This document shows, piece by piece, positions 33,434 through 36,170 of a stretch of DNA of 64,000 bases (within the stretch, counting starts at the first letter, position 1; each line of letters starts with the position of its first letter). Position numbers and translations under genes: made by a program. The stretch lies in contig NZ_CP119791.1 in the NCBI RefSeq assembly GCF_029338295.1, positions 744,001-808,000 of the forward strand. Reading direction: 5' to 3'. The notes under the pieces are model-generated. The model searched no databases and had not been told where the DNA came from. It was given only the letters and a program-made list of their open reading frames with translations. The stretch comes from Haladaptatus sp. QDMS2 (lineage in GTDB: Archaea > Halobacteriota > Halobacteria > Halobacteriales > Halococcaceae).

Positions 33434-33481
33434 ACGTCGTCTGCCCTCTCCCAGTCCAGATTTTTGTCTGGAACCAAGGAT

Positions 33482-33510
33482 TTTATAGCTGCTATGCTAT
33501 TCTTTAGCAT
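33482..33510 (+). promoter_or_regulatory. TATA box and inverted repeat over a regulator's start codon
   Basis: TTTATA (33482-33487) lies 22-27 nt before the ATG at 33509. ATGCTA-TTCTT-TAGCAT (33494-33510) is a perfect inverted repeat that runs into the ATG, as expected for autoregulation of a DNA-binding protein. Confidence 0.55.
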
Positions 33511-34354
33511 GGATTCCGCGATTCGGGCCATCGAGTTTTTGGCGCGGTCAGAACACCGTCTCGCGGTACTGGAGGCGCTTTCTGAGGACCGATACGACCG
33601 ACGGGACTTGCGCGAAGCGACTGGTGCGTCAGACCCCACTATCGGTCGCATCGTTCGAGACTTCGAGGACCGCTCGTGGGTAACCCGCGTGGGACCATCC
33701 TACGAACTCACACCACTGGGTACGTTCGTGAGCGAGCGATTCTTCGAATTACACGAGGGAATGCGAACCAGCGAGACGCTTAGCGAGGTCTGACGGTGGC
33801 TTCCGCGCGAGATGGAGGGATTCGCCGTCGAACACTTCGAAGATACGGTCGTCGCGTACCCCGGGCCAAACTATCCGTACACACCCGTCGAACGAGTCAC
33901 GCACCTTCTCGAATCGACCGACTCCATCCGAGGGCTCGGAACGACCATCTACAAGTCGGGCAACCTCGACGTGTTTTGTCGGCGGGTCATCGAGGGGATG
34001 GAGATGGAGTACATCTATTCGCTCCCGGTCCTCAAAGCTATCATCGACTGGAATCCCGAGTTGGTTGCGCGCGCCTTCGAGCGTGATAACTGCACGGTCT
34101 ACCTCCACGACGGCCTTCCCGACGACTCGCGATGCGGCCTCAACATCATGGACGACTGTATCGGAAATTGCGGCCACGACCCAGAGACGGCCCAACTCGA
34201 AGCCGTAATCGACACGACCTCTCCTGAGGCCCGCGAGTGGGCGACCGCCGTCTACGAGCGATGTCTGGCTGAGGCGCGACCGTTCGATGTACAGGAACTG
34301 GACACTTCTGGGGACGGTTCACGGGACGAAACGTATCAGGTCGAACCGGACTAG
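33509..34354 (+). pseudogene. FilR1-like winged-helix regulator with in-frame TGA
   Basis: Both parts lie in one frame. The N-terminal part (33509-33793) is a winged helix (AVLEALSEDRYDRRDLREATG, then TIGRIVRDFEDRSWVTRVG). It stops at TGA 33791-33793, after LSEV. The same frame continues RWLPREMEGFAVEHF and a domain like the haloarchaeal FilR1-type effector domain (YPYTPVERVTHLLEST, GLGTTIYKSGNLDVF, CGLNIMDDCIGNCGHDPET). Homologs I remember have Trp or a similar residue at that point, so TGG to TGA would explain it. Ligand and targets are unknown. It is either a pseudogene, a split gene or a sequencing error. Confidence 0.8.
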
Positions 34355-34404: not shown

Positions 34405-34583
34405 AGTGTGTCGCCCAGGACACTAACGGCCGGCGTCATCCCGAGGCGGCGTGCCGCGTCAGCCGGGAAACCCTCGTGCCAGGCGCCGTCGATTGACGGA
34501 GTCTCCGAATGTCGCGTGCCTGGGTTCGCCGCGCAGTCATTGCACCCTGAACAGGTACGCTCGGGCGGGGACTAATGGCACGC
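34405..34583 (-). ncRNA. Probable H/ACA guide RNA with two hairpins (sR-h45-like)
   Basis: On the minus strand a TATA-like box (34608-34613) precedes a folded region. Hairpin 1 has a perfect 7-bp basal stem (34577-34583 with 34514-34520). An ACA (34510-34512) follows one base after it, and the upper stem begins 15 nt before that ACA, the canonical H/ACA spacing. Hairpin 2 also ends in GCG-ACA (34409-34414) and holds CCGGC/GCCGG arms (34430-34466) with CTGA/ATGA, like a kink-turn site for L7Ae. The right pocket of hairpin 1 (AACCCA) would pair with UGGGUU just 5' of E. coli 23S U2604/U2605. Haloarchaeal sR-h45 is known to guide that site; its sequence was not compared. Confidence 0.6.
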
Positions 34584-34607
34584 AGAAATCCGTAGGCGGC
34601 CCGGCCG

Positions 34608-34613
34608 TTTAAG
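34608..34613 (-). promoter_or_regulatory. TATA-like box for the H/ACA RNA
   Basis: Read on the minus strand, CTTAAAC lies about 27 nt before the 5' end of the predicted RNA, 5 bp after the end of the geranylgeranyl reductase gene. Confidence 0.5.
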
Positions 34614-34618
34614 CCTTC

Positions 34619-35986
34619 TCAGGCGGTGTACTCGTCTTCGCGAATCTGGACGTACGAGTGGTTCCGGTAGCCGAGTTTTATTTTGCGATACTTCGCGAGG
34701 AGCTTCGCCCCGGAGATACCCGAGGAGATGGCCTGTGTGGTGCTGTAGCCGCCGCGGTCGAGCAGGCGGTCCACGGTCCGGAACGTGTGGTCCCAGTCGC
34801 GGGGCGTAAAGTTCGTGACGTAGTCTGCCATCGCAATGCTCCGCAGAACCTCGTCGCCGAGGGCGCGTTTCCAGGCGGTGTTGTACGACCGCAGCGTTCC
34901 GCTCGCGGCCATCGCGCCGGCGAGTTTCCCGGTTCGAACCGCGACGTGGTCGCCGCCCTCGTGGAAGTGGGAGGTGCCGCCCATCGCACCGCCGGTCACG
35001 GCGATGTTCGCGGCCACGGGCGAGTCGATTGGTCGCGTCGAGGAAATCGGATAGGCTTCGGTTCCGCCGCTCTTGCCGCGGTCCTCCACGAGCGGGAAGT
35101 CGTCCTCGATGTCGTACTCGTCGCCGTAGAGCATTTCGAGCAGGCGTCGGAGGTACACCCGGCCCGGCGGAAGCTGCCGGTCGTCGTGGCGCAGCAGTTT
35201 GTATTCGTGTGGGTATTCGATGTTCCCCATTTCCATCCCGATGGGCATCGTGAGGCCGACGCGCTGGACGTTCCCGTCGTTGGGGAAGACCCACGGGTAG
35301 GCGGTGTGGCCGGGGATGACGCCCCACCAGAACTTGATGAGGTTGTCCTCGACCAGTTCTGTGGGGAACTCGCGGTGTTCCTGATACGCGATGTGATTCG
35401 CCTTCTTCGGGCCGAGGTAGTCGGCCACCGACCGTCCCGCGGGCATGAACTGGTCGACTGTTTCGAGGGTGACCTGTCGCTGGGGGCCGTCTGCGAGAAT
35501 GAGGTATTCCGCTTCGATTTCAGCCCCGTCGCGCAGCGTCAGCGTGTGTTTCGGGCCGCTCGCGAGCGTGGTCGTCACGTCCTTGACCGCCGCTTTCACG
35601 CGGTACTCGGCCCCGGCTGCCTCCGCTTCGTCGCGAAGCCAGTCGTCGAACCGGGCCCGGTGGAAACAGAAGCCAAAGCCGTCGTACTTCGCCGGAATCC
35701 CGGTCTCCTGGAGCGTAAACTGCTCCGTGGGACCGATGAACTGCGCGCCGTCGAGTTCCGAGAGGATGGCCTCCTCGGGGAACTCGTGTGGCTCCATGTC
35801 CATCAAGTCGATCCAGTAGTCTAGCATCCCGGCGGCGTCGGTCGAGTCGGGACCGAGTCGCTCGCGGTCTGCTCGCGGCACCCCCTTTTCGAGAACGACG
35901 GCATCGGCACCCCGTTGGGCCGCCGCCTTCGCCGCCGAGGAGCCAGCAGGCCCCCCGCCGACTATCGCAACGTCAACGCGCTCCAT
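34619..35986 (-). CDS. Geranylgeranyl reductase-family flavoprotein
   Basis: 455 residues from the ATG at 35986. The protein opens with the FAD-binding motif VDVAIVGGGPAGSSAAKAAA, has the mid FAD segment GAMGGTSHFHEGGDHVAVRTGKLAG and a long C-terminal part with FTPRDWDHTFRTVDRLLDRG. It belongs to the family that saturates the geranylgeranyl chains of archaeal ether lipids or the side chains of menaquinone. The window also carries mvk, ipk and idsA, which make the substrate. The frame is open further upstream, but the FAD motif fixes this start. Confidence 0.88.
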   Translation of the reverse strand: MERVDVAIVGGGPAGSSAAKAAAQRGADAVVLEKGVPRADRERLGPDSTDAAGMLDYWIDLMDMEPHEFPEEAILSELDGAQFIGPTEQFTLQETGIPAKYDGFGFCFHRARFDDWLRDEAEAAGAEYRVKAAVKDVTTTLASGPKHTLTLRDGAEIEAEYLILADGPQRQVTLETVDQFMPAGRSVADYLGPKKANHIAYQEHREFPTELVEDNLIKFWWGVIPGHTAYPWVFPNDGNVQRVGLTMPIGMEMGNIEYPHEYKLLRHDDRQLPPGRVYLRRLLEMLYGDEYDIEDDFPLVEDRGKSGGTEAYPISSTRPIDSPVAANIAVTGGAMGGTSHFHEGGDHVAVRTGKLAGAMAASGTLRSYNTAWKRALGDEVLRSIAMADYVTNFTPRDWDHTFRTVDRLLDRGGYSTTQAISSGISGAKLLAKYRKIKLGYRNHSYVQIREDEYTA

Positions 35987-36170
35987 ACCACTACCCGTGC
36001 GTGGCGGGGTTAAATTCCTGACCCTTTGGGCCATCCCCTGATACGAATCTGCCGTCGCAGTATGGCATCCGGTAATGGTCGGCCTAATCTCTAGCCGTTC
36101 CAATCCTTTCAGCGATTACCGCCCGGATAACAATGTATCACATGGTGCTTGCTAGCATCGGAGTCAGACA

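Follow-up and report, generated by a model that had tools for sequence, protein, structure and literature searches.

Evidence for a two-hairpin box H/ACA guide RNA gene in the haloarchaeon Haladaptatus sp. QDMS2, an ortholog of the Haloferax HP1/HP2 RNA

The closest described system is a two-hairpin RNA predicted in Haloferax volcanii and other halobacteria, in which hairpin 1 (HP1) was assigned to Psi2621 and hairpin 2 (HP2) to Psi1956 and Psi1958 of the 23S rRNA (Grosjean 2008, PMC2584109). The folds of the H. volcanii hairpins were refined as Hvo1 and Hvo2 (PMC4652768), and the same three target sites are given in both papers. HP1 was likened to stem II and HP2 to stem III of Pf7, and in eukaryotes the sites equivalent to Psi1956 and Psi1958 are served by the U19/snR191 H/ACA snoRNA (PMC2584109). 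For archaeal H/ACA guides, a rule of 14-16 nt between the upper-stem closing pair and the ACA box has been given, along with rules for the ACA box and the K-turn (PMC4652768).

The window, the whole 64,000-nucleotide stretch of Haladaptatus sp. QDMS2 DNA that was analysed, contains a locus that we read, with a probability of roughly 0.95, as a haloarchaeal gene for a box H/ACA guide RNA with two hairpins, an ortholog of the HP1/HP2 RNA of Haloferax. The hairpin order and the three 23S target sites are like those of the H. volcanii RNA, and the window RNA was taken as its ortholog because these targets coincide with those given for the Haloferax RNA. It is an additional member of an already described kind and not a novel class. 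The H. volcanii RNA is presumably the sR-h45 of Blaby 2011, a study that reportedly included an experimental test of sR-h45. In Haloferax prahovense, H. massiliensis, H. sulfurifontis, H. larsenii, H. elongans and H. marinum, the pockets and ACA boxes were the same as in the window RNA. The Thermococcales RNAs Pab40/Pf7 (stems II and III) and Archaeoglobus Af4.3 differ from it in having adjacent hairpins and a third hairpin, whereas U19/snR191, compared here by its target sites, has the eukaryotic H/ACA architecture.

The RNA is housed in a 264-nt intergenic gap between an FAD oxidoreductase gene (34619-36103, minus strand) and the end of a regulator gene at 34354 (plus strand). This HVO_A0261-like regulator (33464-34354) has an HVO_A0261_N domain and a FilR1_middle domain with an in-frame stop between them (LSEV*RWLPREMEGF); the stop may mark a pseudogene or a split gene, or may stem from an error in sequencing. 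All of the H/ACA features were found on the minus strand, with HP1 at 34583-34510 and HP2 at 34485-34409, and both hairpins have a basal stem, an internal pocket, an upper stem and an ANA box. The basal stem of HP1 is 7 bp long (GCGUGCC/GGCACGC) and is followed by G and the ACA box (34510-34512), which is ACA or AUA across all aligned sequences; that of HP2 is CGCCUGG/CCUGGGCG, followed directly by its ACA box (34409-34411, alignment A2). The distance from the upper-stem closure to the ACA box was 14-15 nt in HP1 and 15 nt in HP2, in keeping with the 14-16 nt rule, and the upper stem of HP1 includes C-C mismatches. A K-turn with tandem GA is present in each upper stem, as GA opposite RAU-GA. 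In HP1 (34537-34562), the GA at 34562-34561 is opposite AAU-GA at 34541-34537 (CCGA/AAUGA), at about 10 layers from the pocket, and L7Ae may bind here. In HP2 (34436-34460), the GA at 34460-34459 is opposite GAU-GA at 34440-34436 (CUGA/GAUGA). The GA and AUGA elements are invariant in alignments A1 (HP1) and A2 (HP2). An earlier note, prepared from the DNA letters alone, had pointed to the GCG-ACA ends of both hairpins, the 7-bp stem of hairpin 1 with 15 nt to its ACA, and kink-turn-like elements, and each of these was recovered.

Single-sequence folding of the whole 179-nt region gave z = -0.7 with a minimum free energy structure that was not the H/ACA fold, and neither strand gave support for the region as a whole, while HP1 folded alone gave z = -2.3 and largely matched the drawn structure. 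Because of this weak single-sequence folding, covariation was relied upon for the structure. In the first alignments (14 sequences for HP1 and 15 for HP2), 98.8% and 94.7% of the cells were paired under the named structures, two-sided changes were present in 6 and 4 pairs, respectively, and the covariation score was matched by none of 500 shuffles for either hairpin and was far above that of slid versions. Larger alignments of 91 HP1 and 88 HP2 matches, which included six Haloferax species and Halobacterium salinarum and which, being fitted to the model, are biased toward it, had two-sided changes in 15 of 18 HP1 pairs and 11 of 19 HP2 pairs (0/500 shuffles). The covariance models matched the window with E = 5.4e-17 (HP1) and E = 2.8e-17 (HP2), the window itself being among the sequences from which both models were built.

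A DNA search within the family to which this genome belongs gave matches to the whole element or to a single hairpin in 17 of 18 genomes. Of 391 haloarchaeal genomes searched with the covariance models, 385 were positive for HP1 and 383 for HP2, and each hairpin was detected in 84 of 86 genera. The same RNA is present in the six Haloferax species and in Halobacterium salinarum. In every inspected locus with both hairpins (86/86), these were on the same strand with HP1 first. The covariance search proposed in the earlier note and the covariation in relatives that its reading required both came out in its favour, and its description of the RNA as unannotated is plausible, as an Rfam search of the RNA matched no family; the family is apparently absent from Rfam. 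Among the 391 genomes, G051, G298 and G385 had no clear copy of one hairpin. The HP2 of G189 (L074, G189:C19:28861-28958) is split by a transposon-adapter-like stretch, AGATGTGTATAAGAGACAG, which is probably an assembly artefact, the HP1 of G276 sits close to a contig end, and the hairpins of G038 and of the f11 genomes are diverged and nearly adjacent. Two copies of the HP1-HP2 locus were present in G205 of family f4 (G205:C1:1714670-1714851 and 3469978-3470159), identical across the stretch shown and in the flanks, which suggests a large duplication; the third hairpin described below was also present twice in this genome. In G011, a diverged second HP2-like hairpin, possibly a paralog, was located about 310 nt downstream of HP2 (L009:1116-1188, minus strand, 44.6 bits).

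The hairpins of the window RNA are separated by a linker of only 24 nt (34486-34509), in contrast to the long spacer stressed for H. volcanii and other halobacteria (PMC2584109). It contains a mini-hairpin, CCGUC-AAUC-GACGG (34499-34486), which folds alone and for which a compensatory CCGCC/GGCGG was seen in two congeners. Beyond the genus, linker length was not conserved: across 86 loci it had a median of 41 nt and extremes of about 0 and 261 nt, a variation that rules out a special role for the 24-nt linker. Since spacer length varies freely within the class, the long spacer is a trait of some members of the family and not a defining one. In genus g2 (L017:1574-1747, L018, L010, L007), the linkers are 67, 117 or 174 nt long and have a variable number of mini-hairpin modules, whose hairpins contain tandem GA/GA motifs. 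HP1 and HP2 were directly or nearly adjacent in the divergent families f6 and f11 (L061-L064), as in Thermococcales, which suggests that the linker was acquired later.

Guide pockets were scanned against the single 23S gene detected in this genome. The 3' guide of HP1, AACCC (34522-34526, invariant in A1), pairs with (U)GGGUU, a match lengthened by the A at 34521, and has a single target in the 23S rRNA of this genome. The U that follows this target (own position 2616, E. coli U2586) is itself followed by A and then by GAC, with which the 5' guide GUC (34570-34572; GUCC invariant in A1, target AGAC) pairs, contributing just 3 bp. The best site for HP1 was U2586, with a score of 10 versus 6 for the next site, and none of 300 shuffled 23S sequences reached it. 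In HP2, for which the earlier note had offered no role, the 5' guide GAGGGU (34470-34475; AGGGUUU invariant in A2) pairs with ACCCUC of the genome's own helix 69, and the 3' guide GUUAGU (34422-34427; GUUAGUGU invariant in A2) pairs with UAAC for U1915 or with ACUA for U1917. Its best sites, in two registers, were own U1951 and U1953, equivalent to E. coli U1915 and U1917; these matches are weaker on their own, as several guide registers were tried and each site was reached by 10 of 300 shuffles, but they coincide with the literature sites. In the literature numbering, U2587 is E. coli 2552 and G1950 is E. coli 1909, and these offsets (e.g. 35 for Psi2621) place Psi2621, Psi1956 and Psi1958 at E. 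coli 2586, 1915 and 1917, the very targets found here. The RNA is most likely a guide for pseudouridylation of U2586, U1915 and U1917, as predicted from pocket complementarity.

The reading of the locus as a two-hairpin H/ACA guide orthologous to the Haloferax RNA had already been put forward in the earlier note, and on covariation, distribution, promoter and target match it held. The complementarity of the pocket AACCCA to UGGGUU of 23S rRNA was also borne out; the target number, E. coli 2604/2605, was not. The sole UGGGUU in the 23S rRNA of this genome aligns with E. coli 2580-2585, immediately before U2586, while E. coli 2604 and 2605 correspond to own G2634 and U2635, neither of which matches the pocket, and the literature offsets likewise yield 2586. 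The number 2605 does occur in the Haloferax literature, where we take it to be in H. volcanii numbering, and it is scarcely conceivable that HP1 directs a pseudouridine at E. coli 2604/2605. A different possibility is that the H/ACA RNP acts mainly in rRNA folding or assembly, comparable to eukaryotic snR30/U17, and not in pseudouridylation. Pairing by itself could serve as a chaperone, and H. volcanii can do without Cbf5 (PMC7991803). Against this, the pockets, with 14-15 nt to the ACA, have the geometry of catalytic guides and every target is a U with pairing on both sides, so that a predominantly structural function appears very unlikely, and guiding of pseudouridylation is preferred.

The RNA begins 35 nt past the stop codon of the oxidoreductase gene on the same strand, and synteny with this gene recurs in some relatives, as would be expected if the hairpins belonged to that gene, as a terminator or structured 3' UTR, and were not an independent RNA. 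However, a TATA-like element, CTTAAA (34608-34613), is present 25-30 nt upstream of HP1 at the position of an AT peak in relatives, and a TA at -11/-10 (34593-34594), a putative promoter-proximal element, coincides with another conserved AT peak, near -11. When 86 distinct upstream sequences were compared, the AT content was maximal at -31 to -28 from HP1 (0.72 versus a background of about 0.33), and the spacing of both peaks was fixed although the upstream sequences differ. The element is retained where the upstream sequence is different, and its invariant guides match 23S rRNA. A 3' UTR or terminator is on these grounds extremely improbable, and read-through from the upstream gene as the sole origin of the RNA is disfavoured by the conserved promoter. 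The fixed distance of the peaks points to a start at about the first base of HP1 (about 34583), and argues for an independent gene, the transcription of which we infer to be under its own promoter.

As a guide, the RNA would be transcribed on the minus strand from this start, and each hairpin would assemble with L7Ae at the K-turn and with Cbf5-Nop10-Gar1 at the stems and ACA box. A Cbf5 gene was detected above the curated cut-off in the same genome. Pairing of HP1 with UGGGUU and GAC would bring U2586 (E. coli numbering) into the active site, while HP2 would pair around U1915 and, with the register shifted by two, present U1917, both in helix 69. The expected outcome would be pseudouridines at the three sites.

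A further single-hairpin H/ACA element was traced in one family, where the HP1 model gave weak second matches. The model of this third hairpin was positive in 278 of 391 haloarchaeal genomes, including the present one (G000:C1:2685087-2685157, L243:2788-2858, minus strand, E = 9.3e-11), where it is located 751 nt upstream of the 16S rRNA gene. Of 29 third-hairpin loci examined, 26 had the 16S gene within reach, and in all 26 of these testable loci, from several families, the hairpin was 545-845 nt upstream of the 16S gene on the same strand. TATA-like and -11 peaks were present with the same spacing as for HP1, and covariation was strong, in 11 of 17 pairs and with a score reached by none of 500 shuffles. 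A copy at the head of the rRNA operon was also seen at L265:500-570 (plus strand), probably in the genus Haloferax. For the pocket, CCUCC with UCAU/CAC, the best match in 23S rRNA is GGAGG-U-C-GUG(A), at the position of E. coli 2572 (25/300 shuffles), and the prediction of this position as its target is suggestive only. In Haloferax, a fourth Cbf5-dependent pseudouridine is, as we assume, at the E. coli 2572 position. We lean, with some reserve, towards a haloarchaeal two-gene H/ACA set for 23S rRNA, in which the HP1/HP2 RNA would serve 2586, 1915 and 1917 and the operon-head hairpin would serve 2572, the latter being syntenic with the operon whose product it would modify.

The analysis confirms a near-universal haloarchaeal non-coding RNA, apparently without an Rfam family, and the long spacer of the literature becomes a freely varying linker and not a fixed trait. 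The class-wide alignment with covariation, the promoter position and the corrected E. coli target numbers are sufficient for the annotation of hundreds of genomes. If the assignment of the operon-head guide is true, every Cbf5-dependent site of the 23S rRNA would have its matching guide hairpin, the fourth of these sites being presumed.
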